From Magnolia sinica (taxonomy: Eukaryota > Streptophyta > Magnoliopsida > Magnoliales > Magnoliaceae): DNA of 64,000 bases. Within the stretch, counting starts at the first letter, position 1; the number at the start of each line of letters is the position of its first letter. The stretch is taken from positions 16,252,032-16,316,031 of the forward strand of contig NC_080582.1 of NCBI RefSeq assembly GCF_029962835.1. The letters are read 5' to 3'. Positions 24,475 to 62,690 of this stretch are shown here, in pieces. Both the position numbers and the translations under genes were made by a program. The notes beneath the pieces were generated by a model that was given only the letters and a program-made list of their open reading frames with translations, was not told the DNA's origin and made no database searches.

Positions 24475-24558
24475 CGCCTATTTTCCCCCAGGTAAATCAA
24501 CAAGTTCCCATGTTTGATTTTTCTCCAAGGCAGTCGTCTCATCCATCATGGCATGCTT

Positions 24559-26276: not shown

Positions 26277-26338
26277 ATGGTCAGTGGCCTTGTGTCAATG
26301 ACTTAGGGCTGGGAAGAGGGAGTAATAGTGGATGTACC

Positions 26339-37919: not shown

Positions 37920-37949
37920 GTCGGTGTCCTAACTCGTAGCCGTGAGACA

Positions 37950-38761
37950 TATATCATAATCTGCAAAAAGAAAACTACAACGTTGCATCTGAAGCGATCG
38001 CAGTGGAATCTGATTCATCTTCCTTCTCCTTTCCTTTTCCTTTCTTGTCGTTCTTCTTACTACACCATTCCAGCAATCAACATCTTTTCTGTTACTCGAC
38101 TTGCCTCTTGATTTATCTTGGGCCTTCTCACCCTTCCTGTTATTTGCTCTCCCCCGTTCATGTGTTACAAGGGTCTCTTGCTGAGTAGACCCCTGAGACT
38201 CCTCCTTGTCTCTTCATTGAAGAGACAGCTAGTAACTTGTTCCATGGATATCTTTTTGTCTATCGCGGAGTTACTTAGAGACACCACCAATGTCTCCCAA
38301 CTGTCAGGCAATGAACTAAGCAAAAGTAAAGCATGCAATTCATCATTCAGGACCATCTTCATAGCGGAAAGTTGGTTCACTATATTGCTGACCTCATTCA
38401 TGTACTCGGCCACAGAACCACCATCCTTGAACTTGAGATTCACAAGTCGCCTTATCAAAAAAATCTTATTACCAGCTGTCTTCCTCTCATACAACCTTTC
38501 TAATTTCAGCCATAGGCTAGCGGCTGAGGTTTCCGTATACACATGGTGGAACACAGAATCATCCAGTCATTGTCTAATAAACCCCACCGCCTTCCGGTCC
38601 AACTTCTTCCAATCATCATCAGATATATCTTTGAATTTTGCTGATATGCCTAAAATTGGATAATATAGGCCCTTGCAATAAAGTAAGTCCTCCATCTTAG
38701 CCTTCCATATGGTCCAGTTAGAACTATTGAGGTTGATCATCCTTGATGAGCCACCTTCCAT
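37950..38761 (-). pseudogene. Copia gag (capsid), interrupted
   Basis: 38761-38567 begins MEGGSSRMINLNSSNWTIWK, KMEDLLYCKGLY, and 38554-38165 continues MFHHVYTETSAASLWLKLER, NKIFLIRRLVNLKFKDGGSV, AEYMNEVSNIVNQL, LSSLPDSWETLVVSLSNSA. This is the UBN2-type copia capsid that forms the virus-like particle. A stop at about 38564 separates the two parts. The zinc knuckle expected after it is degraded (CWNG.., 38075-38040), with the later cysteines and histidine lost. The ATG is about 36 bases inside the primer-binding site, a normal position. Confidence 0.88.
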
Positions 38762-42730: not shown

Positions 42731-43914
42731 TTTTCGAATTTTGATGTTTTCTCACGATATTGTTGTGAAAATCTTACTAAAATTTTTTTAAAATATATTA
42801 TAAATTAATAAATAGTTTAAAATTTTAACAACGAGCTATTTATAATTTGGTATTTTTATGGGAAGGTTGTTCTTTTTAGAATGGAAATTACCCAACCACC
42901 CCCGTGTGTTGCTTTTCTTTAAAAGGTAATACAGTTAGTAAATTTTGTGCCCCGCATTGTATACATCTGACATCCAAGCCTATCAAACATCTACAACTAA
43001 TCAATGATTACACGGATCAAAAATATTTTTGATTGAATCACCAGATGGGTTATATATGTATTTTGATGTTTTCAAATAGTCTATATCATTTTTTATAGTG
43101 TTGTTCTTCTCAACATCATAGCGGATTACATCTATTGGACGGATTGGATATCAAAAAAGTATCACATGGGCCCCAGAAATTTTCACTTTACTACTATGTA
43201 AAGAAAGAGCACTGTATGTATCATGATGATTTCACCACTCAAAAAGCACTACTTTCTAAAGAAAAAGAGCAGTGTGGGTATTATGATAATTTCACCACTC
43301 AAAAAGCACTTCTCCACCCTCTCGTTCACGGGGACTTTATTTGGTAAAATTCCCTATTTGTCAAAATTCCTAACATCTGATAATTTTTACATTATTATCC
43401 CGAAAAATATGAGTGATTCAAAATTGCTGATATTTTGAAAATTCTCCAATAATATTGTTTATCTTATTTCCCACAATAGTATCCCGAGATTTTCAACATA
43501 ACAGACCTTCGTCGCACTGCTAATCCTCTGTTTGTTGAGCAAATCCAAATCTATGCCTTTTTGGAATCTCATTGACAAACTCACCGCAATTGTCCACCTT
43601 TTCCTATGATTTTGTTCTGCAAGGGTGCAGCTACACTATCAGAACCAGCACCTTGTACATGCTTCAGAATCTCACACTAAATGAATTCTGACCCTTCCAA
43701 CAATGGATTTGTCTAAACATAGTGTTGAAATTGCAGTCAATAAGGAAAAAATCACATCCTTGTGGATGCTTCTTTACGCATATCATCTAATATCTACAAA
43801 TTAGAGAAACCATTATACTGCCTCATGTGTCCTACTTCTTTTGGGTTGTCCTTCACTGTATGAGCCGTAACCAGGGTGACAAGCATCGATGATAACATCA
43901 CAAGGTATATAAGA
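42731..43914. other. Unassigned AT-rich stretch with a 58-bp tandem pair
   Basis: No gene recognised. Two related units of about 58 bp lie at about 43204-43318, each ending 'atttcaccactcaaaaagca'. The rest is low-similarity AT-rich DNA. Confidence 0.4.
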
Positions 43915-43919
43915 GTCCA

Positions 43920-44150
43920 GCTTTGGTGGGGTGAGTATTTGGCTGGTGACCCTACCAAAGCTCATTTCCATAGCTCACTGGTTAAGATTGAAAATCAGGC
44001 ATGTGCTGGGACCTAATTTCCAGGCCTACCTGAACTCAGTAACCCAAACTTGTATCCAACAATACCTGTTTCTCTGGATTGGATAAACATGATTAAGAGC
44101 GTTGATAAAGAATTAAAGATCCCCACCATGGAACAATTGGGTTGGACCAG
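43920..44150 (+). pseudogene. Conserved short frame of unknown function, copy C (nonsense codon)
   Basis: Reads WWGEYLAGDPTKAHFHSSLV, ENQACAGT, a TAA stop, then FPGLPELSNPNLYPT, LDWINMIKSVDKELKI, TMEQLGWT. Homologue of 6096-6320 and 29004-29297. Confidence 0.4.
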
Positions 44151-44684
44151 TCGGGATTGGGATAAGCCTAGCCCAAGTTTCATCCTAATCCATGGGTTGG
44201 GTTGAGCTCATTAGCTTATGGCATGTTTTTTTAATTGTTGGGACACTACCATCTATAATTTCATTGATATAATAGAAAATTACATCTAGGGGAACATAAA
44301 TGAAACCTGAAAAACCCAACAAATTCATACAAAATAGCAAGGCCCCACGACAACATCTAACAGGAAAGACAGGTGAGTCCAGACTATCAGGAAAATGAAA
44401 GGGAAACAAAAAAAAAAAAATTGAGTCCTGCTTACTGCTGCAAGCATGATTTGCCAAACAAATCCAGTACTTGTTTACCTTTCTTAAATACATGCAAAAG
44501 AGCAATACATCCAATTTCTTCATGAAATTCATAATTCGAATCCAGTAAGACTAAATCATTCAAGTCCAGTGGAACACCCTATACTTTCTACTACATCCTA
44601 ACACAAATAAAAGAGAAATACAATAGTTCAAGAAGACAGGAATAACATAAGCAAGCAGAGGTAAATTAAGCAGAGAAGAATCAC

Positions 44685-45071
44685 TTAGTTGAGGGACACC
44701 ATTCTTTGAAACGGATGTTGCATGACTAGATGCTGCCCTCCCATTTCAGAACAAACTTCATGGGACTCAGTCGTGATCATGACTTTTCTGCCACTGGTGG
44801 TGGCAAGGGCTGTGACTGGAACTCCCATCTCTTGCAAGTCAAAGCTTTCCCAAACATCTTCCAAGATGAGAATGAACCTTTGGCCACTTAAATTATCCTT
44901 GATACGCTTAGCAGCTATGGAGATTTGTATGGACTCTGGGTTCTCCAATGCCTTCTGAATTCCCATCTGCATCTCCATCAACTGATTCCTTATCTCCTTT
45001 GCATCAAACATATTTAAAACCTCCATTTCCACGACCATCTGTGACTTCCCCACTCCCTGCATCAAGATCAA
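44685..45071 (-). pseudogene. NB-ARC fragment, copy C (internal deletion)
   Basis: The 128-residue frame reads MILMQGVGKSQMVVEMEVLN, MFDAKEIRNQLMEMQMGIQK, RFILILEDVWESFDLQEMGV, VMITTESHEVCSEMGGQHLV and ends FQRMVSLN like copy A. Relative to copy A, about 85 residues between the P-loop helix and VLKMFDAK are deleted, which removes RNBS-A, and the residues before QGVGKS are missing. P-loop residues GVGKS, kinase-2 and RNBS-B survive. An NB-ARC domain of this size could not fold normally, so I call it a pseudogene although the frame is open. It occupies the same position in its unit as the copies in A and B. Confidence 0.82.
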
Positions 45072-46985
45072 TTTTCCAAGCTATGTTTGTGCTCAAAGTA
45101 ATTTTTGGCCGACCCATCACTAACCTGGTATATGCTGCTCTAACACTTGATTAGGCAACCCATGCATCTTGAATATAGACCATCAATTTGTCTACTTCTT
45201 TGTCATGTGTGGCCCACTTGATCAATGGATACATTATGAAATTCGAGTGGGAAATGGGGATTTTATCATTTTTGGGCTGGGCCAGGATATGCCTGGGCTC
45301 AACCAAATTTTTGGGCTAAAGCTTGGGCCTGCTGTTCTAGGGCCATGCCGTTCTCAAGCCTTCAATCATACGTGTCTGGCCGGGTTCACGACTAGCCTGG
45401 CCTGGCCCAAACGTGGCCCATTGCCTCCCCATTGAATAATGTCTTGGACGCATCGCTGTATCATCAGAGTAGTGCGTCTGGACTTTTTTCTTTTCTTTTC
45501 TTTTCTTTTCAATTTCTCGTTTATGGCTGGTTAGTTCTGCTTACAACCTCTGATTGAATGCCCATCAGTCAGTTGGCCCACATTAGGCGTTGGGACATCT
45601 TGGTACTGCCTACCATCTCAGTACTACCCACCAGATAGATGGTTTGGATCAAACTGGATCAAACAAGCACCTCAACGAGAATATTGTTGAATTGGAATTT
45701 CAGTTTTAGAATCCATGTTCACGACCCAATCGTAAGTTGTATGTGCGCCATTATAATATATGGATTAATTCTAATTTGCCAAATCATTTTAAAGTATGAG
45801 TCCAAAAATGAGGCAAATCCAAATCTCCAGTAGACCACACCACAGAAAACAGTGGCGATGAACGCCAACCATGACGGTACTAAATGGTTCCTAACGTCAT
45901 GTGTTTCTTACATCTAATTTGATCACCAGTGGTGTAACCAAATTTTAAGAATTGGTGTTAAAAACTAACCTCATCCATTATTCAAGTGGACTATATAGTT
46001 AGAAAAAGTGTACAGGGAAATGCCCACCCTCCAAACTACATCCCTCGATGTGTCCCACCTAAATCACTGATTATCCAAAATCTTGGACCTTGTATATAAT
46101 GATTCGAGTGGATTTCACATAATCACCAGGGTCGGGCTCGTAGAAATTCAAGTGGACGTCTCACAACTCTTTTCTTTGGCGTGGCCCATCTGAATAAAAG
46201 TCAGCCTGATTTTCTGGACATAGGACTAATGTGTGATAATGCATTCAATGGCTAAAAATGTCCTATGCATGAGGTGCCTTTATATGATCAGTTTTGGTAA
46301 TTAAACGGGTCAGCCCAGGAACTCGCCGCAACCCATGCAACTCATCCTGCTTGCACACCCTCCAAGAATGCTAGGCGGAAATTCACACCAGTAATGATAC
46401 AAAATATCTTGATACAAGAAAAGAGGGAAATTTCAATAGATGTACATACCTGAAATTTGGCTCTTCGGTGACTTTTCAGTGGCAAGTCAAATAAAATTAA
46501 TTAACGAGGCATCAAGTGGTGCAGTAAGTCCAAAAGCTTCATACTGCGTACGTTTATATATGCAACCCAGATATAGATGTGAAGGCAAGTGTGTGGAAGA
46601 AGTGGATGCTTTCATGAAAGGGAAAAGAAAAGGGAGAGGCGAATGCCTTGCTTCTATGGGAGGAAAAGGGATGTGCTGTAGCAGAGGAGTTTCTTTCATA
46701 GTCAAAAGCAATTTGGGCACTCCGAGTTCTCTGTTTGGAAATAGTTGTGTGGGGTTCATGGTTGATGTATCTAAGCCATTGATCTGTTGGCCCCCATCAT
46801 GGATGGACGATTCCCCCAAAATCTACTAAATTGAAAGATTTTAGTCATTAAATCTTTGGCTTTTTCTCAAGTGTATGGGGTTTGGTCATTCATTTATTTT
46901 AACCACAGGTTAACATGCTAACAACAAGAAGGCTAGAAGGCTAGAGTCGACCAATTGAGAGGATATACCAGAAATGGTACATCCA

Positions 46986-46996
46986 TGATCGAAGAC
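46986..46996. other. Flanking direct repeat, left (tgatcgaagac)
   Basis: Identical to 62526-62536; copy B has one equivalent site ('tgatcggagatgac', 33993). Confidence 0.85.
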
Positions 46997-47003
46997 AAAA
47001 CTG

Positions 47004-47520
47004 CAAAAAAAGGACGGTCCAAAACCGTCTCAAATGACGAAAAAGGACGGTCATGGACCGTCGCAAGGGCCGTCAAATTTTGACGTGTCGTATTACTTAA
47101 AGGACGGTTGAAAACAGTCATTTTTATTGACGAAAAAAGGACGGTCATGGACCGTCCTAAAAAAGGACGGTCTTGGACAGTCTCTTACGAGCCTTTACAA
47201 GACGGTCATGGACCGTCCTTAAAAAGACTGTTTACAGGACGGTCATGGACCGTCCTTAAAAAAGACTGTCGTAGACCGTCTGTAATGAGCCTTCAAAGGA
47301 CGGCCATAGACCGTCCTTTAAAAGGACAGTCATGGACCGTCCTTAAAAAGGACTGTCATGGTCCGTCTCTTATGGTCCTTCAAAGGACGGCCATAGACCG
47401 TCCTTTAAAAGGACGGTCATATACCGTCCTTAAAAAGGACTGTCATGGTCCGTCTCTTATGGGCCTTTAAAGGACGGCCACGGACCGTCCTTAAAAAGGA
47501 CTGTCATGGACCGTCCCTTA
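47004..47520. repeat. Left subterminal palindromic repeats of the CACTA element
   Basis: About a dozen units of the form ggacggtcatggaccgtcc joined by short AAAAA or CTTATGGGCCTT linkers. Each is an inverted repeat about a 3-4 base centre. The frame at 47108-47470 (repeating GHGPSL/DRPLKG) is a by-product. Confidence 0.9.
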
Positions 47521-47619
47521 TAAGAGGGTCAATATACACCTGTTACTTCATCATATTCTTCCTGATATACACCTGTTATATAATATATTTCATCATATTC
47601 ACATTCATATCCATCTAAA

Positions 47620-47800
47620 CCTAAACTATGTAAATCCAGCATAAACTACATTCATCCAAACAAATACTACATCCATCTAAACCCAAACTACGTAAATCCA
47701 ACATAAACTACATTCATCCAAACATAAACTACATCCATCCAAACACAAGCAATCTTATCCACATTGCATTCATCCACACATAAATACATATAAGTTTAAC
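47620..47800. repeat. Short tandem repeat, 'aaactacatccatccaaaca'
   Basis: About six imperfect units of 25-30 bp within the CACTA element. Confidence 0.6.
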
Positions 47801-47994
47801 ATCATAAATTAAAAAAGGAAAAAAATCAACAGCAATTTTCTTTTTGTCTTTCACCTGAAAAAAAAAAAAATCCAACACCATATATAAGTATTAGAAGGGT
47901 TGGATATCACATGCACATAATAAAATAGAAGTTATTTGCTAGCTAAACTATATATATAGCCCAATTCATCACATGTGATTGTCATCCCAAAATC

Positions 47995-48215
47995 TGAATG
48001 GTCCATGTAATTCAGCACCCTATGAAACCTCTTACGGCCTAACTTTTACCTTGATCCAAAACTTTGGTGGCCATGGCCAAAGAAAATAATTTCTTCCCTT
48101 AATTTGCATTTCTCTTTGCTATAGCCCACCAAAGTTTTGGATTAAGATGAAAATTGGTCCCTAAGAGTTATCATGGAGTGTTGCATCCCATCGACCATTT
48201 AGAGTTTAGGTCCAT
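47995..48215. mobile_element. Foldback MITE inside the CACTA element
   Basis: Arms of about 78 bp: left 'gatccaaaactttggtggcc' and right 'cccaccaaagttttggatta' are complementary with scattered mismatches, and outer parts such as 'gaatggtcc' and 'cgaccattta' also pair. Spacer about 50 bp. Non-coding. Confidence 0.6.
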
Positions 48216-48349
48216 AACACATGTGCAAAGGTGGACAGGTGGGCATGCTTCTCTGTCTCTCAACAGAAACGGACTTAGACTAAAATACTTGGTTTACCGG
48301 ACAAATATCTTCTATTCTATCACATGCATGGTACATTCAACCCTTCCAA

Positions 48350-51300
48350 TAGGTTCGGGATTGGGTTTAGGTTTAGGTTAGGGAGTTGAGATTAGGATTA
48401 TGTGTAGGTTTAGGTTTAGGAATTTGAGAATACATTTAGGTTTTAGGTTTATGTTTAGGTTATAGGTTATAGGTTTAGGTTAAGGTATAGGTTTAGGTTA
48501 TAAGTAATAGGTTTAGGGAATTGAGAATAGGTTAAGGTTTAAGTTTAGGAAATCGGGTTCGGGTTCAGGATAGGGTTTAGGTTTTGGTTTTCATGTTTAG
48601 GTTTAGATTTAAGTTAGTAAGTTGAGATTAGGATTAGGTGTAGGTTTAAGTTTAGAGATTTGAGAATACATTAATGTTTAGGTTTAGGAAATCGGTTTTG
48701 GGTTCGGGATCGGGTTTAAGTTTGAGTTTTCAAGTTTAGGTTTAGGTTTAGGTTAGGGAGTTGAGATTAGGATTAAGTGTAGGTTTGGGTTTAGGGATTT
48801 GAGAATACATTTAGATTTTAGGTTTAGGTTTAGGTTATAGGTTATAGGTATAGGTTTAAGTTTAGGTTTAGGTATAGGTTTAGGTTTCGGTTTAGGTTAT
48901 AAGCAATAGGTTTAGGGAATTGAGAAATAGGTTAAGGTTTAGGTTTAGAAAATCGGGTTCAGGTTCGGGATCGGGTTTAGGTTTGGGTTATCAAGTTTAG
49001 GTTTAGGTTTAGGTTAGGGAGTTTAGATTAGGATTAGGTGTAGGTTTAGGTTTAGGGATTTGAGAATACATTTTTAGGTTTTAGGTTTATGTTTAGGTTA
49101 TAGGTTATAGGTTTAGGTTTAGGTATAAGTTTAGGTTTCGGTTTAGGTTATAAGCAATAGGTTTAGGGAATTGAGAATAGTATAAGGTTTACGTTTAGGA
49201 AATCGGGTTCGGATTCAGGATCGGATTTACGTTTGAATTTTCAAGTTTAGGTTTAGGTTTAGGTTAAGGAGTTGAGATTAGGATTAGGTATAGGTTTAGG
49301 TTTAGGGATTTGAGAATACATTTAGGTTTTAGGTTTAGGTTTAGGTTATAGGTTATAGGTTTAGGTTAAGGCTATAGGTTATAGGTTTAGGTTAAGGTTT
49401 AGGTTTAGGTTTAAGGATTTGAGAATGCATTTAGGTTTTAGGTTTAGGTTATAGGTTATAGGTTTAGGTCTAGGTTTAGGTTTATGCTATAGGTTATAGG
49501 TTTAGGTTAAGGTTTAGGTTTAGGAAATCGGGTTCGGGTTCGGGATCGGGTTTAGGATTGATTTTTCAAGTTTAGGTTTAGGTTTAGGTTAGGGAGTTGA
49601 GATTAGGATTAGGTGTAGGTTTAAGTTTAAGGATTTGAGAATACATTTAGGTTTTAGGTTTATATTTAGGTTATAGGTTACAGGTTTAGGTTAAGGCTAT
49701 AGGTCATAGGTTTAGGTTAAGGTTTATGTTTAGGTTTAAGTTTAGGTTATAAGCTATAGGTTTAGGGAATTGAGAATAGGTTAAGGTTTAGGTTTAGTAA
49801 ATCTGGTTCGGGTTCGTGATCTGGTTTAGGTTTTGGTTTTCAAGTTTAGGTTTAGGTTTAGATTAGGGAATTGAGATTAGGATTAGGTGTAGGTTTAGGT
49901 TTAGGGATTTGAGAATACATTTAGGTTTTAGGTTTATATTTAGGTTATAGGTTACAAGTTTAGGTTAAGGCTATAGGTTATAAGTTTAGGTTAAGGTTTA
50001 GATTTAGGTTTAAGGATTTAAGAATACATTTAGGTTTTGGGTTTAGGTTTAGGTTATAGGTTACAGGTTTAGGTTTAGGTTTAGATTTATGCTATAGGTT
50101 ATAGGTTTAGGTTAAGGTTTAGGTTTTAAGCTATAGGTTCAAGTAATTGAGAATATGTTAAGGTTTAGGTTTAGGAAATCGGGTTCGGGTTCGGGATCGG
50201 GTTTAGGTTTGAGTTTCAAGTTTAGGTTTAGGTTTAGGTTAGGGAGTTGAGATTAGGATTAGGTGTAGGTTTAGGTTTAAGGATTCGAGAATACATTTAG
50301 GTTTTATGTTTAGGTTTAGGTTTAGGTTTAGGTTATAAGCTATAGGTTTAGGAAATTGAGAATAGGTTAAGGTTTAGGTTTAGGAAATCGGTTTCGGGTT
50401 CGGGATCACGTTTAGGTTTGAGTTTTTAAGTTTAGGTTTAGGTTTAGGTTAAGGAGTTGAGAATACATTTAGGTTTTAGGTTTATGTTTAGGTTATAGGT
50501 TATAAATTTAGGTTAAGGTATAGGTTTAGGTTTCGGTTTAGGTTATAAGCAATGGGTTTAGGGAATTGAGAATAGGTTAAGGTTTAGGTTTAGAAAATCG
50601 GATTCGGGTTCGGGATCGGGTTTAGGTTTGGGTTATCAAGTTTATGTTTAGGTTTAGGTTAGGGAGTTTAGATTAGGATTAGGTGTAGGTTTATGTTTAG
50701 GGATTTGAGAATACATTTTTAGGTTTTAGGTTTATGTTTAGGTTATAGGTTATAGGTTTAGGTTTAGGTATAGGTTTAGGTTTCGGTTTAGGTTATAAGC
50801 AATAGGTTTAGAGAATTGAGAATAGTATAAGGTTTACGTTTAGGAAATCGGGTTCGGGTTCGGGATCGGGTTTAGGTTTTAGTTTTCAAGTTTAGGTTTA
50901 GGTTTAGGTTAGGGAGTTGAGATTAGGATTAGGTGTAGGTTTAGGCTTAGGGATTTGAGAATACATTTACGTTTTAGGTTTATATTTAGGTTATAGGTTA
51001 CAGGTTTAGGTTAAGGCTATAGGTTATAGGTTTAGGTTAAGGTTTATGTTTAAGTTTAAGTTTAGGTTATAAGCTATAGGTTTAGGGAATTGAGAATAGG
51101 TTAAGGTTTAGGTTTAGGAAATCAGGTTCGGGTTCAGGATCAGGTTTATGTTTGGATTTTCAAGTTTAGGTTTAGGTTTAGATTAGGGAGTTGAGATTAG
51201 GATTAGGTGTAGGTTTAGGTTTAGGGATTTGAGAATACATTTAGGTTTTAGGTTTATATTTAGGTTATAGGTTACAGGTTTAGGTTAAGGCTATAGGTTA

Positions 51301-52975
51301 TAGGTTTAGGTTAAGGTTTAGATTTAGGTTTAAGGATTTGAGAATACATTTAAGTTTTGGGTTTAGGTTTTGGTTATAAGTTACAGTTTTAGGTTTAGGT
51401 TTAGGTTTATGGTATAGGTTATAGGTTTAGGTTAAGGTTTAGGTTAAGGTTTAGGTTTAAGTTTAGGTTTTAAGCTATAGGTTTAGAGAATTGAGAATAG
51501 GTTAAGGTTTAGGTTTAGGAAATTGAGTTTGGGTTCAGGATCACGTTTAGGTTTGAGTTTTTAAGTTTAGGTTTAGGTTTAGGTTAGGGAGTTGAGAATA
51601 CATTTAGGTTTTAGGTTTATGTTTAGGTTATAGGTTATAAATTTAGGTTAAGGTATAGGTTTAGGTTTCGGTTTAGGTTATAAGCAATGGGTTTAGGGAA
51701 TTGAGAATAGGTTAAGGTTTAGGTTTAGAAAATCGAATTCGGGTTCGGGATCGGGTTTAGGTTTGGGTTATCAAGTTTAGGTTTAGGTTTAGATTAGGGA
51801 TTTTAGATTAGGATTAGGTGTAGGTTTATGTTTAGGGATTTGAGAATACATTTTTAGGTTTTAGGTTTATGTTTAGGTTATAGGTTTAGGTTTAGGTATA
51901 GGTTTAGGTTTCGGTTTAGGTTATAAGCAATAGGTTTAGAGAATTGAGAATAGTATAAGGTTTACGTTTAGGAAATCGGGTTCGGGTTCGGGATCGGGTT
52001 TAGGTTTTAGTTTTCAAGTTTAGGTTTAGGTTTAGGTTAGGGAGTTGAGATTAGGATTAGGTGTAGGTTTAGGCTTAGGGATTTGAGAATACATTTACGT
52101 TTTAGGTTTATATTTAGGTTATAGGTTACAGGTTTAGGTTAAGGCTATAGGTTATAGGTTTAGGTTAAGGTTTATGTTTAAGTTTAAGTTTAGGTTATAA
52201 GCTATAGGTTTAGGGAATTGAGAATAGGTTAAGGTTTAGGTTTAGGAAATCTGGTTCGGGTTCGGGATCAGGTTTAGGTTTTGTTTTTTAAGTTTAGGTT
52301 TAGGTTTAGATTAGGGAGTTGAGATTAGGATTAGGTGTATGTTTAGGTTTAGGGATTTGAGAATACATATAGGTTTTGGGTTTAGGTTTTGGTTATAGGT
52401 TACAGTTTTAGGTTTAGGTTTAGGCTTATGGTATAGGTTATAGGTTTAGGTTAAGGTTTAGGTTAAGGTTTAGGTATAAGTTTAGGTTTTAAGCTATAGG
52501 TTTAGGGAATTGAGAATAGGTTAAGGTTTAGGTTTAGAAAATCGGATTCGTGTTCGGGATCGGGTTTAGGTTTGGGTTATCAAGTTTAGGTTTAGGTTTA
52601 GGTTTGGGAGTTTAGATTAGGATTAGGTGTAGGTTTAGGTTTAGGGATTTGAGAATACATTTAGGTTTTAGGTTTAGGTTTAGGTTATAGGTTACGGGTT
52701 TAGGTTAAGGCTATAGGTTAAGGTTTAGGTTAAGGTTTGGGTTAGGTTATAGGTTAAGGTTTAGGGATTTAAGTTTAGGCTATAGATTTAGGTTTAGGTC
52801 TAGGTTTAGGTTTAGGGAATTGAGAATAGGTTAAGGTGTAGGTTTAGGATATCGGGTTTGGGTTTGGGATGGGGTTTATGATTGGGTTTTCAAGTTTAGG
52901 TATAGGTTTAGGTTAGGGAGTTAAGATTAGGATTAGGTGTAGGTTCAAGTTTAGGTTTTGGTTTAGGTTAAGGGT
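48350..52975. repeat. Telomere-like satellite array, degenerate TTTAGG/TATAGGTT
   Basis: 4.6 kb made almost only of TTTAGG, TTATAGG and GTTAAGG words, with the G-rich strand on plus. A longer unit is superimposed: 'aatcgggttcgggttcggga', then 'ttagggagttgagattagga', then 'gggatttgagaatacattta', then 'aggttataagcaataggttt'. I located about 17 occurrences of the first phrase, spaced about 140-400 bp. A larger repeat of about 1,135 bp is seen: 'tcacgtttaggtttgag' at 50406 and 51541, and 'ggttataagcaatggg' at 50541 and 51676. Canonical plant telomere repeats are TTTAGGG; runs of perfect TTTAGGG do not occur. Confidence 0.92.
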
Positions 52976-52999
52976 ATGGTCCCTGCAAAGCAAATACAG

Positions 53000-53510
53000 A
53001 TATAAAGATGGCCATCCGACACAAATGCCAGGCCCCTCCAATGCTGTCCATAAAAAATGGACAGCTTCATCATGGTCATAATAGCGGTTCCCTCTTTCCA
53101 GGGAACCCCGCTCTTCCGAATAGCTCCGACGCACATCCGGGTCTGCTCCATTAATTTCGATCAAGTACATAAACACGGCATGTCCAAATGGCCAGGCCCC
53201 TCCAATGCTGTCCATAGGAAATGGACAGCTTCATCATGGTCATAACAGTGGTTCCCACCTTCCAGGGACCCCTGCTCAACATTCGGATATCTCCGACGCA
53301 CATTCGAGTCTGCTCCATCAATTCTGAGCTAATACATAAACACGGGCCTGTCCAAATGGCCAGGCCACTCCAATGTTATCTATAGAAAATGGACAGTTTC
53401 ATCATAGTCATAACAGCAGTTCCCACCTTCCGAAGACCCCTGTTCAACATCCAGATAGCTCCGACGCACATCCAGGTCTGCTCGATCAATTTCGATCTAA
53501 TACATTTAAA
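53000..53510 (-). repeat. Triplicated 164-168 bp exon-like block
   Basis: 'ccaggcccctccaatgctgt' (or variant) occurs at 53028, 53192 and 53360, each with 'atggacagcttcatcatggt' and 'agctccgacgcacatccggg'. On the minus strand the first unit is open for about 60 residues (DPDVRRSYSEERGSLERGNR, YYDHDEAVHFLWTALEG). I do not recognise the protein. It lies between the transposase exon and the satellite on the transposase strand, so it may be a triplicated exon of the element or a captured host exon. Confidence 0.55.
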
Positions 53511-53514
53511 AACA

Positions 53515-53690
53515 ACAAAATTATATCTAAATGCATTTAGATACCTGGGGAAGGCCTCCCATATTCGTATTGTTGGTTACTCATCCCTTTGTCCACAAGC
53601 CACAATCGACCAACACTTTCTATTGCTACCTGTACTCTGAAACCAACACAAATATAACTGGGAAACAATATAAGGAATAATAAAAAAATG
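53515..53690 (-). other. Possible exon on the transposase strand
   Basis: The minus strand has an open stretch (AIESVGRLWLVDKG, NQQYEYGRPSPG) ending in cccag followed by gtatct, a plausible splice donor. No homologue recognised; low confidence. Confidence 0.25.
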
Positions 53691-53888
53691 AATTTACCTG
53701 CGCACATCATTAAATGTTTCCCTATAAGAAGATGATATTATATCTTTGATAGCCACAACCTGAATGACAGAGAAAAATGCAACCGATACAGTCTGTTACA
53801 ATTCAAAGGAGGAAAAAGATTTGTGGCTGCACCGATATTCTAGTACATTATGAACGGCTGCCTACGTACCCAAAAAGTCAGATTGGGA

Positions 53889-54626
53889 TCAAGCCACTAC
53901 GTAGTTCTTTACATTATAGGTACTATCTGGCAAAGAGTTCTCGCTTGGAAAAATCTTCTTGTGCAATTGCAACAAACTCATAAAGCTATTATCTGACCAC
54001 TGAATTCTAGCCTTCATGCTCATCAACTCAACTATCACCGACAACTTTGTATACTCACGTTTACACGATGGATATAGGGGTTGTACCGCATCCTCCCTTA
54101 ATTTATTGTATTGAGTATCATTGTCTATGTCATCTTGAGGCTGACTACCATGTTCCTCATTGACCTCATTCATACATGCATCTAAGTCATCGGGTTGAAC
54201 ACGACCAAAAGTATCATTAACCAAATCAACCATTCTGGGCAATAGCTCTTCATTACAATCAGTGGCAGATGTACTAGGAGCCTTGGCATTGACACCCATA
54301 TTGGGAAGTTGTTCTCCATGAAAAAACCAAGTTGTGTATGTCTGATCTATACCATTCATAATCAAATGCTCAGAAACTGTACTTAGTATTTTCTTCCCAC
54401 GCACATTACGACATCTAGCACAAGGACAACTATACCAATCAACACCTCTCGAATTCCTTTTCGCAAAAATAATAAACGATTCAACGCCTTTAATGTACTC
54501 ATCACTCAATATATCTTTCGTCATCCAATTCTTGCTCAGGGGCATCAAATCCATTTCTGATATCACGTGCATGTAGCATATAAAAAGTGAGATACAATAA
54601 AAAAGAAACTTTTCATAAACTGTCAA
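53889..54626 (-). pseudogene. TNP2-type CACTA transposase, N-terminal portion
   Basis: The 245-residue frame from 54626 opens with a hydrophobic stretch and then the plant transposase-associated domain: KNWMTKDILSDEYIKGVESF, FAKRN, WYSCPCARCRNVRGKK, SEHLIMNGIDQTYTTWFFHG. CPCARC is its conserved cysteine cluster. After an acidic linker comes the start of the TNP2 body: LREDAVQPLYPSCKREYTKL, VELMSMKARIQWSDNSFMSL, KIFPSENSLPDSTYN. TNP2 transposases cut CACTA ends and bind the subterminal repeats. Full TNP2 proteins are several times longer; the catalytic body expected at lower coordinates is absent, replaced by the exon-like triplication and satellite. The start may lie at an internal Met such as MDLMPLSKNW. 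Non-functional as it stands. Confidence 0.85.
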
Positions 54627-54697
54627 AACATGTCACACATGAAAGTCACCAATCACAAAAAAATATAAATCTATATATATCCACAAATATATGCACA

Positions 54698-54822
54698 TGA
54701 TTAAGTGTAGGTTTTAGGTTATAGGTTATAAGTTATAGCTTTAGGGAACTGAGGATAAGTTAAGGTTTAGGTTTAGGAAATCGGGCTCGAGTTTGGGGTT
54801 GGGTTTAGGTTTGGGATCATGC
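54698..54822. repeat. Detached piece of the telomere-like satellite
   Basis: The same words as the main array ('aggttataggttataagtta', 'aaggtttaggtttaggaaat', 'cgggctcgagtttgggg') lie upstream of the transposase frame, so satellite DNA brackets the coding block on both sides. Confidence 0.8.
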
Positions 54823-54824
54823 AT

Positions 54825-55190
54825 ACATACATAAATGCATACAAACATACATGATGATACATCCATCCATCCATGCATGCATACATACATAAACACATGC
54901 ATGATGACCCATCCATCCATGATCTAACAATCCATCCATCTATCCATGCATGCATACACACATACACACACAGGCGTGATGATCCATCCATCCAGTCTTC
55001 CATCCATGCATGCATACATACATACATACATATACACACACATAAATCCATCCATGCATGTATGCATGCATACACACATGCATAATCTGTCCATCCATGC
55101 ATGCATGCATACGTTTCATCCATTCATGTGCACATGCATGCATATACACACATACATACATACGTTTTATCATAAAACCATACATGATGC
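54825..55190. repeat. Tetranucleotide microsatellite (CATA/CATC/CATG mixture)
   Basis: Interleaved catacata, catccatc and catgcatg runs over about 365 bp, starting at the end of the satellite piece. Open frames on both strands (MHAWMD.., HPSIHA..) are by-products. Confidence 0.9.
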
Positions 55191-55479
55191 ATCCATACAA
55201 AAAAAAATAAAAAATCAAATGAAATTATTTTTTTACAAACAGATTTTTTTAATATTATTATAAACAAAACTACTGAATATTCAAATTTTCATCAGGAACT
55301 TGGGCCAGACAACAATTAACCCCAACAAAGAGTTTGAATTTCATTTAATAATACAATTGATAGCAAAGATGTAAATGATTTATAAAATGATCTGTAAAAA
55401 TGTTTAGGATGCAATAAATTGCAGTCCAACTAGTTGGACTTGAGACTTCTTAATTCTAAATATTTAAGACCTCCCTACA
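55191..55479. other. AT-rich sequence without features
   Basis: Nothing recognisable; poly(A)-like run at 55199. Confidence 0.3.
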
Positions 55480-55770
55480 CCATTTGCTTTATCCAGATCT
55501 ATGAAAGTCATGTCTAGATATTTCTCTAATATCTACGCTTCACAATCAATTGTTTAAATAGAAAAATAGCTCCAATTGTTGATCTCCCTAAATTAATTTT
55601 ACAATATCCTTGTTTCTGGTTGTAATCTTTGTTCCACTACCCTCTCCCAAAGCTTCATAGTATGGCTCACAAGTTGGATCCCCTTACTGTTTGTGCATCT
55701 TTGTGCATCTCTTTTGTGCTTGTAAATAGATATTACGGTCCTCCATTCATCTAGCATGTTGTCTACAAAA
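55480..55770 (-). pseudogene. RTE-type LINE reverse transcriptase fragment
   Basis: The minus strand, from about 55740 down, reads KGIQLVSHTMKLWERVVEQR and LQPETRIL, then a stop and frame changes, then DMTFIDLDKAN. The phrase SHTMKLWERV.EQRLR followed by the FIDLEKAYD active-site approach is the hallmark of RTE/BovB-type LINE reverse transcriptases in plants. About 90 codons are covered, with at least three breaks and no endonuclease or 3' tail. It is a short decayed fragment carried inside the CACTA element. Confidence 0.65.
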
Positions 55771-56803
55771 AATTATAGAAAAGGCTAAATCACCAAACTA
55801 ATCCGATTTCAACCAATATCTTCCATACTTTTGTAGGTATATTATCTCCCCACTATAAGAGTTTTTTGAAACGATGCAAATTTTAGAATTTTTGAAAATT
55901 TCCTAGTTTATAATAAACCTAAATTTATGGATCCTCATCTAAATATCGGCAAGTTTCTAAGAATAGAACATAAGGGCTAGGATTTACTTGATCACTGGCA
56001 TTAAAAATGTTTGTAAAAAAGGCCATTTTTTCTCAATCCTTCTGTCATCCTCTGTCTCTACAACTTGAAAGTATTTGGCCTATTCATCAGGTGTAACCTG
56101 CTGAGAACATGCTTTGTAAAAAAAAAAATGAAGAACGATGGTCTACTATCAGGTGGGACCCACATGTATGAGAAAAATAGATGTGGTTATTCCTATTCGT
56201 CAGATTAATGGCCTTAAAACGAGCAGTTAAATAAAATGGCATTGGATCACATTCAGTGGGAAAATGTTAGGCAGCTAGGATTGTCCTATCAGTTTGATTT
56301 TTTTCAACCATCAGTTGTCATTTTGTCCCATGAGATGGACAATTTGCACACTGTTGGAACCTTCCTAAGGTCTAACATGAAGTATAGATGGCAGAACATG
56401 TCACACATGTGTTCAATTCCCACTGTTTCCCACTGTTTCCCAACTAAACTGTCAAAACAGACGGCCCACTTGAGCACTGGATATGCTTCCATTTAGGCTC
56501 ATGCCATAAAATGAGTTGAAAAATAGATGGCAGAGACCAGCAGAGACCAGCAATCCTCATTTTATCCAAAGCTCAGCTGGACCACACACAGGAAAGAGTG
56601 GGGATTATGACATCCACCGTTGAGACTTTCGTAGGGCCCACAAACGATGTTTATTTATCACCCAACTTGTTCATAAGAGACAGCAGGAAAACACAAATAT
56701 TAGCCCGATTCAAACCTTCCGCCCTAAGAAGTTTTCAACAAAGCACCCAATTCCACTGTTTTCTGTGGTGGGCCCACTTGAGCACCGGATATGCTTCCAT
56801 TTA
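55771..56803. repeat. Unassigned sequence, then GTGGGCCC-family fragments
   Basis: 55771-56130: nothing recognised. From about 56140 'ggtgggacccacatgtatga' and landmarks such as 'cactgttttctgtggtggg' and 'atgcttccatttagg' (twice, near 56486 and 56791) mark two partial, partly tandem family members. No gene. Confidence 0.45.
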
Positions 56804-57195
56804 GGGCCCGTTTGGCTCGGATTGGAAGGGATTGGATGGTATGGGAAGGGATTGGAAGTCAAATCTGGATTGGCCTGGCGTGCCAAACAGTCGGTGATCT
56901 GATCCCAATCCCAGGTATCTCAAGACAATCCGCTGACAACACCATCATTACATTTAAATCCCATCAAATCCACCCTAATCCTTCAAATTTGCCTGGGACG
57001 TGTTTGGTTTGAGGGATTAGAAGGGATGAGAAAGTTTAATACCGGGATTGGCCGGGCGCGCCAAACAGACTGGATATAGCAATCCAGGGATATATCAATC
57101 CCATGGATCTCCAGACAATCCACCGACAACACCATTATTACCTAGAAATCCATGCCATCCACCCTAATACCATTCAAACCCTTCCAATCCACCTT
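56804..57195. mobile_element. PIF/Harbinger-like MITE, doubled and 3'-truncated
   Basis: It starts gggcccgtttggctcggat after a TTA (56801-56803). A second start-like sequence ('gtgtttggtttgagggatt') at about 57000 shows two tandem units. The right terminal repeat is lost. It is related to 58704-59111. Confidence 0.55.
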
Positions 57196-57199
57196 CTCC

Positions 57200-57327
57200 C
57201 GCAAAGACATTTCATCAAACACATGTTGTGCATACCTTAAACATTAACAACAAATGAGTACCTGGCCGGGGAAGAGATGAAGGGCAGGGGCTGCTGGCCG
57301 CACGAGATCCGGAGATGATGCCAGTGA

Positions 57328-57372
<45 letters not shown>

Positions 57373-57667
57373 GGTGGGGAAAAGCTGGGACCGGGACGGA
57401 GAGAGAGAGTGGCGCGGGTCTGGGAGAGAGACCGGGACGGCGAGAGAGATAGAGAGAGACCGGGACGGCGAGAGAGAGAGAGAGAGGCCGTCCGGCGAGA
57501 GAGAGAAGCCGTCCGGCGAGAGAGAGAGAGACCGGGACGGCGAGAGAAACAGAGAGAGAGAGAGAGACAGAGAGGCGCTGGGACGCGCGCGCCTGGTAAA
57601 TGAAATGGGGAGGGGGTTGGGCGCGCTGACGGTTTTGAGCGCCCGCCCAAATTTGGGGATGGGACGG
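57200..57667. repeat. (GA)n tract and GA-rich minisatellite
   Basis: (GA)n at 57330-57368, then repeats of 'accgggacggcgagagagag' and 'ggccgtccggcgagag' to about 57570, and 'gcgcgcgcc' at 57587. It resembles the GA-rich leader of a plant gene, but no gene follows. Frames on both strands (RERERDRDGE / SLSLSRRPGL) are low-complexity by-products. Confidence 0.7.
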
Positions 57668-58132
57668 TGGCTGGTGGTCGATGCTTTGTGGGCCCCACCA
57701 TGATGTAAATGTTTCATCCATTCGGTTCATCCATTTTTATAGATCATTTTAGTGCTTGATGCAAAAAATGATAGGGATATAAATCCTAGGTGGGCCACAT
57801 CACAGGACAAAATTAATGAATGGATATTCACAATTAAAATCCTCCTAAGGCCCATTGTACTGTTTATTTGACATCCAATCTGTTTAGTTGGTCATAAAGA
57901 CCCAAATGAAGGGAAAAAAATATTAACTTGATCCAAAACTGTTATGGCCCTCAAAACATTTTTAATGGTCAAAATTCATTCAACACTATTTCCTGTAATG
58001 TGGTCCACTTGAGATTGAGATATAAGTCATTTTTTTATCATCTCATAAAATGATATATATAACAAATAGATGGACGGCATGGATGATACACATACATCAT
58101 GGTGGGCCCCATAGAGCACCGACTACCAGCCA
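57668..58132. mobile_element. GTGGGCCC-family MITE, best-preserved member
   Basis: Terminal inverted repeats of about 55 bp: left 'tggctggtggtcgatgcttt' then 'gtgggccccaccatgatgta'; right 'tacatcatggtgggcccca' then 'gagcaccgactaccagcca'. The interior follows the family order. 465 bp, non-coding. It is a good reference copy for the family. Confidence 0.7.
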
Positions 58133-58329
58133 TTGGCCGGTGTCAGGTGGAGTAGCCAATCTGTTCCCCACCATAGCAAATATATGTGATTTAATCTCCA
58201 TGTTTCCTACCGTATGGTCCACTTTAACCTTTAATCTAGATGATTTTTGGTTTCATGCCCTATAATAATATTTTAAAATATATGGACGGCTTAGATAAGA
58301 CATTTTTAGGCCCTATATGGCCCTCATAC

Positions 58330-59190
58330 CCTAAGCATCCTTGGGGCCCACTATGATTTATTCAATTTATCCACTCCATCTATCCATTTTAACATATAAT
58401 TTTATTACGTAAGGTCAAAATTGAACCCTATAAAAATTTTAAGTGGACCACATCATAGGAAACAGTATAAATTGGACGTCTACCATTGAAATTTTTGGGA
58501 GGCCACTGAAGTTTTAGATCAAGTTGATATTTTAGTTTTCCCTTCAACCATTTATTTGTGATCTATTGAACAAGTTGGATTACAAATCAAAATCACTGTC
58601 GGCGATAGGTAGGTGTCAACGGTGGAAATCATTATTCCCAGTGTTTATGTGGTATGGTCCACTTGAGCTTTAGATATACTTTGATTGTGGACTCAACCAC
58701 TAAGGGCCTGTTTGGATGGGTGGATTGGAAGGGATTGAATGGTTTTAGGGTGGATGGCATGGATTTCAAGGTAACGATGGCGTTGTCAATGGATTGTCTT
58801 AAGATCCATGGAATTGCTATATTCCCCCGGATTGCTATATATTAAGTCTGTTTGGCACACTCACCCAATCCCAGGATTAAACCTTCCCATCCCTTCCAAT
58901 TCCTCGAACCAAACATGTCCCAGGCAAATTTGACTGGATTAGGGTGGATTGGATGGGATTTAAAGGTAATGATGGTGTTGTCAATAGATTGTCTTAAGAT
59001 CCATGGGATTGTATATCCCAGGATCAGATCACCCAGTTTGTTTGGCATGCTCGGCCAATCTATAGGGATTTAACTTCCAATCCCTTCCAATCTACTTGTC
59101 CAAACGGGCCCTAAAATGATCTGGAAAAATGGATTGACGATGTGGATATCATAAACCGTGACTTTGGGCCACAAGCTTAAAAATAAAGTC
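58330..59190. mobile_element. GTGGGCCC-family MITE split by a PIF-like MITE
   Basis: The left part 58330-58703 ('ggggcccactatgatttatt' ... 'ggactcaaccactaa') continues at 59112 ('taaaatgatctggaaaaatg' ... 'tggatatcataaaccgtgac'). Removing 58704-59111 and one TAA restores the family phrase 'ctaaaatgatctg'. Confidence 0.7.
58704..59111. mobile_element. PIF/Harbinger (Tourist-like) MITE with TAA duplication
   Basis: The left end gggcctgtttggatgggtgg and the right end, read on the reverse strand as gggcccgtttggacaagtag, both continue into attggaaggg. TAA at 58701-58703 and 59112-59114 is the duplication typical of PIF/Harbinger. Length 408 bp; an internal repeat suggests two nested units. No transposase. 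Confidence 0.85.
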
Positions 59191-60640
59191 AATCCATGAC
59201 TTGGATGGGCCACACCCACATATTATAGTTGAGAGGGTTACCCTCCCATTAAAACATTCACAATCATTTATTGGGTCCACCTAGTTGTGGTTCATAGATC
59301 CAGCCCATTCACTACAGCCGAGAGGAGTCAAACCCAAGTTTCACAAACATCGAAAACTCATGTGGGCCCCACCAATTGAATACTTTTATATGTTTTAGTG
59401 ATGTCTTCACATGGTTTTAGATACTATGGCTCACCTGAGTTTTGTATACGACTGATTTTTGGACTTAAATGGGACACATCAAATGCATGGTGTTGATGTT
59501 CTACATACATCATGGTGGGGCACACACAAATTAACCTCATGGGAAGTTCCCAAGAGGTGACCTTATAGTACCATTTCACTATTCAGATAACTCCTTCATG
59601 AGTGTTACTCTAACCGTGTATGGCCCACCTTGATATATTTTATGTGTATTGACATCGTCCATATATTTTTCCATCATATATTTAGGATGTGATTTCGAAT
59701 CATAAGAACTCAATAATCTCAGGTGGGTCATGAAATCACTCTTATGATAATTTTTTCACCTTTGGATTTTGCTGTTTTGATGAGGCTGTATGTTGAATTT
59801 TAGGTGTTGTAGGGTTTGCTTTTGTTTTCTTGTCAAAGATTGTTTGATTCTACTAGTGGTGTTTGGAAACTAACCTCTGATATTAATTTAATTCCATTTG
59901 AGAAAAATTCTGTTTGTGTCATTGTCTTGTGTTTCTGCAAGTTCTAGAATTTTTAGTGAGACTTATGTATTGTGTTTTATTGTTTTGGAGTCCTTGAAGC
60001 TAATATGTAGGGGCCGATTGTGGATGGGTGGAGAGCAGGGAATGCCTTTCATGGAACAATCTCTGCTACCTGATTGGTGGACTTAGTACGATTAGATGGA
60101 TGTCGGTCGTCTTTTTTTTTTTTTTGAGATTCCATTTGGCTTAAACTATATTCTAGTTCTTTTTTAATTAACGAGCAGCTTAAACTATATCTAAGCTGTG
60201 CAAGTTTACATCTCGTTGCTTTTGAGACGAGTTAATAGACGAAAAATGATAACATGAGAATGACCCATATTAATGTATGCATTTGGTACCAATTCTTAAT
60301 GTTGCAACACCTGGCATACCTGTACGTACCTCTCCAAAGGTCACACTGATTGGATGATCTTAACTGTCTGAAATTGCTGTTGGATTAATTTGGACCATTT
60401 TCTTTTTGCCTATCCTGATGAATAATATTGACTTGTATTATTCTTTTTAAACATTTATATGCTTCAATCTCCTTTGGTCTGCACTTGTTGAAAGGCACAT
60501 CTATTCTGTTGGGTAGAACACTTATTTTAATATCACGAAGATTGGGTAATCTCAACCATCTGATATTACCGTTGAATTTAGACCATTTTCTTTTTTACCA
60601 AGGTATTGAGGAACTTTGATTTGCACTTCTGTTTCTTAAA
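59190..60640. other. CACTA interior without recognised genes
   Basis: GTGGGCCC-type words at 59350-59640 ('acatcatggtggggcacac'). The rest is single-copy-looking sequence with a T-run at about 60110. A small frame at 59898-60086 has no recognisable domain. Confidence 0.35.
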
Positions 60641-60769
60641 CATGTATATATATTTTTTTAACCTCGAGTTAACACTCTTCTTCTTCTTCTTTTTCTTTTT
60701 TCTTTTCACGTTTAGATGTTTTTAATCCCACTTTGTGTATTGTAGGCCACATCCATTCAATTTGGTATA

Positions 60770-61124
60770 GATCCTTTTTTTTTTTTCAATTTTTCTTGTC
60801 AAAATACAAAATATAGTTTTCTTTTTTAAAATATATATATTTTTACATTTTTTTAATTTTTTCATAATTTTGTTTAATTTAGTTTTTTTTTTCAAAATAT
60901 CAATTTTTAATCTCAGTTTTGTTATAAAACTTATTAATTTTTGTTGTCAAAATACAAAATCTAGTTTTCTTTTTTAAAAAATATATATATATTTTTACAA
61001 TTTGTCAATTTTTTCACAAATTCATTTAATTTTTTATATTTTCTTTTTTAAAATATCTTTTTTTTATCGTAATCTTGTTATTTAACTTTTTAATTTTTCT
61101 TATCAAAATAAAATATCTAATTTT

Positions 61125-61194
<70 letters not shown>

Positions 61195-61740
61195 TACAAT
61201 TTGTCAATTTTTTCACAATTTTGTTTAATTTTTAAAATTTTCTTTTTCAAAATATCATTTTTTAAATATCACTTTTGTTATATAATTTTTAATTTTTCTT
61301 ATCAAAATACAAAATCTACTTTTCTTTTTTTAAAATATATATTTTTTTACAATTTGTCAATTTTTTCACAATTTTGTTTAATTTTTTAAATTTTCTTTTT
61401 CAAAATATCATGTTTTAAATATTATTTTTGTTATATAACTTTTTAATTTTTCTTTTCAAAATACAAAATCTAGTTTTCTTTTTTATAAAATTATATTTTG
61501 TTACCATTTGTCAATTTTGTTCACGAGTTTGTTTAATTTTTTAAATTTTCCTTTTCAAAATATCATTTTTTAAATATCACTTTTGTTATACAACTTTTTA
61601 ATTTTTCTTTTCAAAATACAAAATCTAGTTTTCTTTTTTCAAATATATATATTTTTTGCAATATGACAATTTTGTTTAATTTTTAAAATTTTCTTTTTCA
61701 AAATATCATTTTCTTATCAAAATTTTTTTTTTTCAAAATT
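60770..61740. repeat. AT-rich tandem array, about 155 bp period
   Basis: 'caaaatacaaaatctagttt' recurs near 60795, 60950, 61300, 61455 and 61612, each followed by 'acaatttgtcaattttttca' and 'tttaattttttaaattttctt'. About six units; one carries the (TA)n run at 61129-61190. Confidence 0.85.
61129..61190. repeat. (TA)n microsatellite
   Basis: About 31 uninterrupted TA steps inside one AT-rich unit. Confidence 0.9.
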
Positions 61741-61904
61741 ATCAACATTATTAAAAGTTCTTAATTTTTATTTCAAATTCTAGATTTTTATAAAATTACG
61801 TTTTTTTTCAAAATCTAAATTTTTTTCTTAAACTTTGTTAGTTATTTTTCTGAGTTTTTAAACTTTTTTTTTTCGTAATCCATAAATTTTTTATGGGTAA
61901 AGGG

Positions 61905-62490
61905 TTACTGGAGCATTAGAGACGGTTTAGGACCGTCTCTATTAGACGCTGGCAATGGGTATTGTGATTGGGTGAGAAGGACGGCCATTGGCCGTCTATA
62001 ATTGAAACGGTCAATGACAGTCTCTGATTACCCATACGAGACGGTTAATGACCGTCCCTAATAGAGACGGTCCTTGACAGTCTCCAACAGAGACAGCTAA
62101 AAACCGTCCATAATACAGTCCACAGGGTGGCAGTCCCATGCACCAGGAAAAGACTGCCAACGACCGTCTGTAATTGAGACGGTCCTCGACAGTCTCAAAC
62201 CACCAGTAAGAGACGGCCAATAACCGTCTCTAATTGAGACGGTCCTCGACAGTCTCAAATTTTGGCATATAAGACGGTCAGGGACCGTCTCTTATTCCAG
62301 ACAGTCAATGGCCGTCTTTTATCTGCAGTTAACGACGGTTTTTGGCCGTCTTAAATGATTTGCGGACGTTTAAATTTTTAATACAATAATAAGGACGGTT
62401 AAGGGCCGTCTAAAAATTTAGAGACGGTTTAGGGCCGTCTCTAAAGTGTCTTTAAACCAAGCAATTTTAGAGACGGTCCAAAACCGTCTC
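61905..62490. repeat. Right subterminal palindromic repeats of the CACTA element
   Basis: More than a dozen GAGACGGTC...GACCGTCTC units, the outermost being gacggtccaaaaccgtctc at 62472-62490, the same sequence as the outermost left unit (47012-47030). Confidence 0.9.
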
Positions 62491-62520
62491 TAAATAAGTC
62501 ATTTTTTCCCATTTTTCACG

Positions 62521-62525
62521 TAGTG
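62521..62525 (-). other. CACTA terminus (TAGTG on plus)
   Basis: Ends the element; the reverse strand reads CACTACGTGAAAAATGGG. It is followed directly by the 11-bp flanking repeat at 62526-62536. Confidence 0.8.
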
Positions 62526-62690
62526 TGATCGAAGACAACGGATCAATGGCTTGGATACACTAACCATGGGCTCCACATCTACCAACTAAGTTGAGAAACC
62601 AATAGGGAACTCAGCCAATTTTCATTCACATCGAATGCAAATAACAAACTAGTATGATTAGGTGTTGTAGTACAGATACTAAGGGCTCGT
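62526..62690. repeat. Duplicated unit, copy C, right remainder
   Basis: Continues copy C: 'ggatcaatggcttggata', 'ctccacatctaccaacta', 'ttttcattcacatcgaatg', ending at 'gtacagatacta' as in copies A and B. Confidence 0.8.

Follow-up and report, generated by a model that had tools for sequence, protein, structure and literature searches.

Satellite arrays that reside in DNA transposons are already known from CACTA elements of quinoa and from oyster Helentrons. In Chenopodium quinoa, a 16.5-kb CACTA element containing a 5.55-kb array of 171-bp monomers has been described, such arrays being present in four elements (PMC8978399). In the Pacific oyster, the arrays of the Cg_HINE elements account for 0.85% of the assembly (PMC7492417). 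No counterpart from Magnolia and no telomere-like one was found among the matches listed in a literature search, as far as titles and the beginnings of abstracts tell. When the genome paper of Magnolia sinica (PMC10999834) was searched for words beginning with CACTA, satellite, tandem repeat or telomer, none was found in its main text.

The locus analysed here lies in a window of 64,000 nucleotides (C10:16,252,032-16,316,031) of the 1.84-Gb M. sinica genome. As suggested by our analysis, it very probably represents a CACTA (En/Spm-type) DNA transposon in which a satellite array is a resident internal part, placed 3' of the transposase gene, between the gene and the element end, and in which the array has been spread by transposition. 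The likeness to the described quinoa elements lies in the position of the satellite array, inside the element and 3' of the coding sequence (PMC8978399), and that to the Jozin CACTA element and the satellite CficCl-61-40 of Chenopodium in the tie between a TNP2-bearing CACTA element and a major satellite (PMC7320549). With the non-autonomous Cg_HINE Helentrons the magnolia elements share satellite-like arrays which occur genome-wide, lie centrally in DNA transposons and keep a constant orientation (PMC7492417).

Structure of the window element

The initial annotation of this DNA had delimited an element by the interruption of a host segment (its unit C), by palindromic subterminal repeats at both ends and by a TAGTG terminus, and our alignments and motif counts agree with it on all three points, the terminus being found on the right. 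The host segment is broken between 46,998 and 62,526, and since two paralogous segments run on uninterrupted at the matching point, the 15.5-kb interruption is an insertion. The features of the window are as follows.

33,991-34,000, plus strand: paralogous empty insertion site, with a second one at about 15,973-15,988 (alignment of host segments within the window)
46,986-46,998, plus strand: left copy of a 13-bp flanking duplication, TGATCGAAGACAA; no duplication at the paralogous sites near 33,991 and 15,973
46,999-62,525, no strand assigned: CACTA element of family i, internal-deletion derivative (ends, subterminal repeats, empty paralogous sites)
47,009-47,521, no strand assigned: left subterminal repeats, palindromic GGACGGTC...GACCGTCC units
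47,889-48,351, no strand assigned: imperfect inverted repeats (I3, I8) adjoining the left edge of the array, aligned with the C10 copy described below at 98%
48,350-52,976, plus strand: satellite array with higher-order repeats, built of degenerate TTTAGG/TATAGG units (TRF, self-alignment, anchors)
53,022-53,505, plus strand: 168-bp tandem repeat in about three copies, adjoining the array; repeats related to it flank the arrays of other CACTA types
53,898-54,554, minus strand: N-terminal part of a TNP2 transposase with the Transpos_assoc domain (PF13963, E 1.8e-20; tblastn)
53,906-53,910, no strand assigned: breakpoint at which about 5.06 kb of the C10 copy are missing by internal deletion, with a 5-bp overlap
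54,697-54,815, plus strand: isolated satellite piece upstream of the transposase start, matched at the corresponding position of the C10 copy
56,841-59,091, no strand assigned: segment enclosed by long inverted repeats, whose arms of 76-107 bp agree at 84-89%, also aligned in the C10 copy; probably an older nested element
60,783-61,712, plus strand: AT-rich tandem repeat with a period of about 155 bp
61,918-62,500, no strand assigned: right subterminal repeats, palindromic GAGACGGTC units
62,512-62,525, plus strand: right terminus TTTTTCACGTAGTG (reverse complement CACTACGTGAAAAA)
62,526-62,538, plus strand: right copy of the same 13-bp duplication, starting with TGA

Both ends of the element are marked by clusters of the motif GACGGT(C/T)/GACCGTC (core GACGGTC), with 18 matches on the left and 14 on the right. 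When one mismatch was allowed, the terminal 900 bp contained 33 and 30 matches, respectively, against 0.46 per 900 bp inside the element, and the subterminal repeats occur in both orientations at both ends, a feature by which CACTA elements are recognized. The right terminus reads CACGTAGTG and ends at 62,525, a CACTA-type terminus being present in the window copy at this end only. Elsewhere in the window, paralogous segments at 5,746-7,631, 28,160-30,485 and 43,908-45,080 are 82-93% alike, a domain scan of the first and the third giving NB-ARC (plant resistance-type) fragments, and the open frames at 23,000-26,700 and 35,500-38,600 give translations that resemble fragments of copia-type retrotransposons.

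The array was bounded by TRF at 48,350 or 48,364 and at 52,973; taken to 52,976, it measures 4,627 bp and occupies 30% of the element, in accordance with the earlier description of about 30% of its length as a degenerate TTTAGG array with higher-order structure. Matches at period 6 amount to 65% (TRF) and self-alignments to 74-82%, while the higher-order structure is manifested in 17 anchors spaced 139-401 bp apart and in two units (50,845-51,118 and 51,973-52,246) that are identical across 274 bp. The array is strongly G-rich on one strand. The isolated satellite piece, located about 125 bp upstream of the transposase start, may be a stray copy, or else the sequence from which the array was seeded.

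The N-terminal part of a TNP2-type transposase, which had also been recognized at the outset, was confirmed by the domain and tblastn matches given above. PF13963 is the only transposase domain kept in the window copy, and a Pfam scan of the six frames of 52,976-62,525 gave nothing further up to E 0.1. A protein search with this transposase gave 4 matches among 48 candidates, the best of them to a M. sinica protein. A splice donor at the end of the transposase frame was considered and rejected, because the alignment with the C10 copy puts the deletion breakpoint there.

An apparently complete relative on C10

A relative of the window element at C10:14.0 Mb (L029-L031) measures 20,783 bp, is flanked by AAT on both sides and contains an array of 5,423 bp. 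Its ends (CACTACGCCAAAA.../CACTACGTGAAAA...) bear CACTA on both sides, with 11/13 TIR matches. A frame of 774 codons contains Transposase_21 (PF02992, E 3.3e-91), DUF4218 (PF13960) and PF13963, and PF13952 lies in a frame downstream of it, so that the TNP2 transposase with Transposase_21 that characterizes CACTA elements is present here. Judged by its sequence, this relative appears to be a complete element, the one such element examined, and it both encodes TNP2 and carries the array.

Homology of the window element to the C10 copy starts at 46,996 and amounts to 95-98% identity outside the array. The two arrays are collinear with similar anchor spacing, 4,344 of the 4,531 ungapped positions being identical (95.9%), and the flanks of the array agree at 97-98%, which indicates that the array moved as one unit instead of being built up anew at every site. 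A stretch of about 0.55 kb in the window copy, near 55,470-56,026, is unmatched in the C10 copy. The alignment points to the derivation of the window copy from a C10-like element by the deletion of about 5.06 kb.

The left tip of the window copy is not a CACTA end, its first 8 bases being missing relative to the C10 copy, and its flanks have 13 bp in common, not 3 bp. The C10 copy starts with CACTACGC-CAAAACTG; in the window, TCGAAGA and then TGA precede CAAAACTG, and the right flank reads TGA-TCGAAGACAA-CGG. Most simply, the 13-bp duplication would combine a 3-bp TGA duplication with 10 bp of adjacent target sequence, which took the place of the initial 8 bp of the left tip and were joined at CAA; the first 3 bp (TGA) of the right copy would then be the true CACTA target duplication. 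An abandoned excision that was repaired from an empty-site template would leave this pattern of flanks, and the window copy has probably lost the ability to move.

The two junctions agree over exactly 13 bp, which are not duplicated at the paralogous sites, as would also be the case if the 13 bp were a true target duplication and the window copy had not been inserted as a CACTA element, or had been inserted in another way as a truncated copy. This appears rather improbable, given that the right end of the window copy is the family-i terminus, that the C10 relative has a 3-bp target duplication, and that the 13 bp are explained by 3 + 10 bp and the disappearance of the 8-bp tip. A 13-bp target duplication made by another transposon class was likewise disfavoured by the 3-bp duplication of the C10 copy and by the alignment of the tip with it.

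A common array module in CACTA elements with different ends

The first 100 (TTTAGG)3 matches listed, on C1 up to 7.59 Mb, form nine array clusters (a1-a9), and every one of these was examined. All nine adjoin CACTA ends or CACTA-related subterminal sequence, which falls into four types.

Type one (family i), GACGGTC: a5, a7, a9, the window element and the C10 copy
Type two (family ii), GGCTACGG: a1, a2, a6
Type three, TAGCGACGAA: a3, a4
Type four, TCGTCGGTAA: a8

Element a4 has motif matches common to types three and four. Paired ends together with a 3-bp duplication were found in four of the nine (a2, ACA; a4, ACA; a6, GGT; a8, TTC), which with the AAT of the C10 relative makes five relatives with a 3-bp target duplication. 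Both a7 and a9 possess two family-i ends with unequal flanking triplets (TGT/TCC and CCT/CCC, respectively), and a1, a3 and a5 show a single end or homologous subterminal sequence, their other end not having been found. CACTA stands at both ends of the C10 relative, a2, a6, a7, a8 and a9, and the left end of a4 begins with TACTAC.

Automatic pairing of CACTA-like ends produced spurious pairs at 9-11/13 matches, for example in a9, and therefore only pairs backed by subterminal repeats were kept. The end pair of a4 shows 10/13 TIR matches, which arise 0.4 times per locus in shuffled sequence, and a8 shows 11/13, as does the C10 copy (0.05 and 0.15 times in shuffled sequence, respectively); these three pairs were accepted because subterminal repeats flank both of their ends. 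The right end of a6 contains only 2 family-ii motif matches and aligns with the right end of a2 at 72%.

The right junction of the array is alike in types one, two and three, being present in 5 of the 10 array edges compared (a1, a2, a3, a4 and the window element). In each of the eight two-ended elements the G-rich strand runs inward from the array-proximal end, the array lying 0.7-1.6 kb from that end. At loci L012-L017, CACTA elements with other subterminal repeats carry a like satellite and a related 168-bp flank.

A module that is common to CACTA types with different termini is either ancestral to these types or has been passed between them by recombination. More tentatively, and with the balance of our judgement against it, the satellite module (array and 168-bp repeats with a fixed junction) might pass between CACTA families by recombination as an exchangeable cargo with a role in the element, e.g., as a tolerated or protective spacer 3' of the transposase gene.

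The presence of the satellite in four subterminal types could also mean that an independent dispersed satellite has been repeatedly captured by different CACTA elements or has received their insertions; the array edges of a5 to a9, which end differently from the common junction, would fit this reading, and capture is favoured by the quinoa authors in their own case (PMC8978399). Independent capture by each CACTA type is, however, disfavoured by the array/168-bp junction that types one to three have in common and that recurs over the genome (see below). The constant orientation and position of the array relative to the nearer end in the two-ended elements and the collinearity of the window and C10 arrays argue in the same direction. 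We therefore consider capture unlikely and favour an array that resides in the elements and spreads with them.

Dispersal over the genome

Genome-wide pattern counts, with reversed patterns as controls, revealed (TTTAGG)3 at 100,836 places (38 in the control) and a 22-mer of the satellite at 33,283 places with up to one mismatch (control 0). The array-flank junction was found at 1,865 places with up to three mismatches, against 0 in the control. Among the element ends, the family-i right-end 14-mer occurred at 915 places (control 12), the family-i left end at 1,165 places with up to two mismatches (control 0) and the family-ii left ends at 2,557 places (control 0).

The association of these patterns was counted on the exact matches listed for C1 and C2 below 98 Mb. 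In this set, 21 of 33 family-i left ends had a right end within 30 kb in the correct order and strand, and none of the 33 had one in the wrong arrangement. An exact junction was enclosed by 8 of the 21 paired elements; likewise, 8 of the 21 measured 15.2-16.1 kb, which suggests that the 15.5-kb derivative proliferated as such. Within 15 kb of exact junctions, 16 family-i right ends lay on the expected side and strand and none in the three other arrangements, and near the exact junctions 10 family-ii left ends were found in the expected arrangement versus 0. Altogether, a correctly placed exact end accompanies at least 26 of the 64 exact junctions, a lower bound because exact matches alone entered the count. 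On C1 below 22.64 Mb, with each array cluster represented by one or two points, all eight exactly matching family-i right ends were accompanied by a same-strand array 1.9-10.2 kb upstream, and no opposite-strand array was found within 15 kb of them.

A genome search with the transposase piece of the window, in which 150 of 1,627 candidates were scored, gave at least 150 matches. Eight of the 150 listed loci were sampled over 3 kb each, non-randomly from the top of the list and leaving out the window, the C10 copy, two loci with a known exact junction and two others near the top. An array on the expected strand was present in seven of these eight, in one case of only 189 bp, and the sample of the eighth (L039) lies beyond the left end of its element. 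At loci L034 and L036 the array extends across nearly all of the 3 kb sampled, without the junction. No array was found in 6 kb of sequence close to a more distant transposase (C1:8.91 Mb), and the array need not be present in every CACTA element of this genome.

Tandem arrays of one satellite family occur at many loci; those examined are short and dispersed, ranging from 83 bp to 5.7 kb. A rough extrapolation from the array density in 11 loci puts the satellite total at about 23-24 Mb (24.4 or 22.8 Mb), or some 1.3% of the genome, and the dispersed arrays number well over a thousand and probably thousands. The junction count, together with the adjacency of all nine first array clusters to CACTA ends or related subterminal sequence, supports the dispersal of this satellite across the genome by transposition. 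The initial annotation had proposed that a mobile element carrying satellite DNA could seed tracts at many loci and had asked whether other copies with the same ends contain the satellite. Such copies exist, as the paired family-i elements enclosing the junction demonstrate, and the recurrence of the junction lends weight to the proposal; of the outcomes that had been named as speaking against it, related copies that all lack the array, an array produced by an assembly join, and a satellite confined to a single locus, none agrees with what was observed.

Resemblance to telomere repeats and reliability of the assembly

The unit TTTAGG resembles the plant telomere unit TTTAGGG, and this likeness, along with the strong G-richness of one strand of the array, would fit degenerate interstitial telomere tracts that remained after chromosome fusion or after repair by telomerase. 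In the window array TTTAGGG occurs 20 times and two consecutive units (TTTAGGGTTTAGGG) 0 times; consecutive units were absent from all ten arrays searched, a set without the 83-bp array of a9 and without the second portion of a6, and a telomere origin of the array was rejected on this ground. Furthermore, true (TTTAGGG)3 was found at 1,196 places (control 7), versus the far larger count of (TTTAGG)3 given above, and the arrays examined, which include long stretches of non-telomeric sequence, are situated next to transposon ends or within them. Telomeric descent is accordingly very improbable. The expression "telomere-like" used in the initial annotation holds as a loose resemblance of the unit and fails as a statement on telomeric repeats, which these arrays are not. 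The true (TTTAGGG)3 matches listed include dense runs at C2:140.185 Mb, and an interstitial run of true TTTAGGG is located at C2:44,761,981-44,762,426, far from the contig ends.

Long tandem arrays are prone to misassembly, and an array or a whole element could have been stitched together artificially. An assembly join is the least credible of the explanations considered here, in view of the recurrence of the junction at so many places, the target duplications in five elements and the nanopore reads of M. sinica, which average 22 kb (PMC10999834) and exceed the 15.5-kb element in length.

Proposed mechanism of array dispersal

The movement of the array-bearing elements, as read from their ends, target duplications and collinear arrays, would proceed as follows. 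The array is retained in internal-deletion derivatives, of which the window copy is one, and such derivatives may move with transposase supplied in trans by complete copies. Cut-and-paste movement would carry the array as a block to new sites, and satellite arrays would in this manner become dispersed over the genome. Between copies, the arrays would lengthen and shrink, presumably by exchange between repeats, and the different CACTA types may have come to hold one module by either of the two routes named above, ancestry or recombination.

If so, the magnolia elements provide a clear large-scale case of a satellite dispersed by cut-and-paste transposition, and not by local amplification alone. 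Several carrier types and deletion derivatives occur in one genome together with empty sites and an element that appears complete, which makes it testable in magnolia how satellites scatter and whether arrays hitch-hike on their carrier or help it. It can likewise be tested whether telomere-like probes would light up the chromosome arms of magnolia.

Comparison with known satellite-carrying transposons

Contrary to the oyster elements, which are Helentrons that make no target duplication, have arrays mostly of up to 5 monomers and are reported with no related autonomous partner (PMC7492417), the magnolia carriers are CACTA elements. In the Jozin case of Chenopodium, a transposase-gene fragment of about 40 bp is described as the start of the satellite (PMC7320549), whereas the magnolia array lies inside the element, and a tblastn comparison of this array with the first 405 residues of a relative's transposase gave no match. 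In quinoa, the FISH signal of the satellite is reported as dispersed along the chromosomes (PMC8978399). The quinoa array is built of a 171-bp monomer and is read by its authors as captured (PMC8978399), while that of magnolia consists of degenerate 6-8 bp units with higher-order structure. Compared with the quinoa report, the magnolia genome contains the junction at 1,865 places, and one and the same array-flank junction occurs in three subterminal types. What is new in magnolia is therefore the scale, the presence of one array-flank module across several CACTA types, and an apparently complete carrier.
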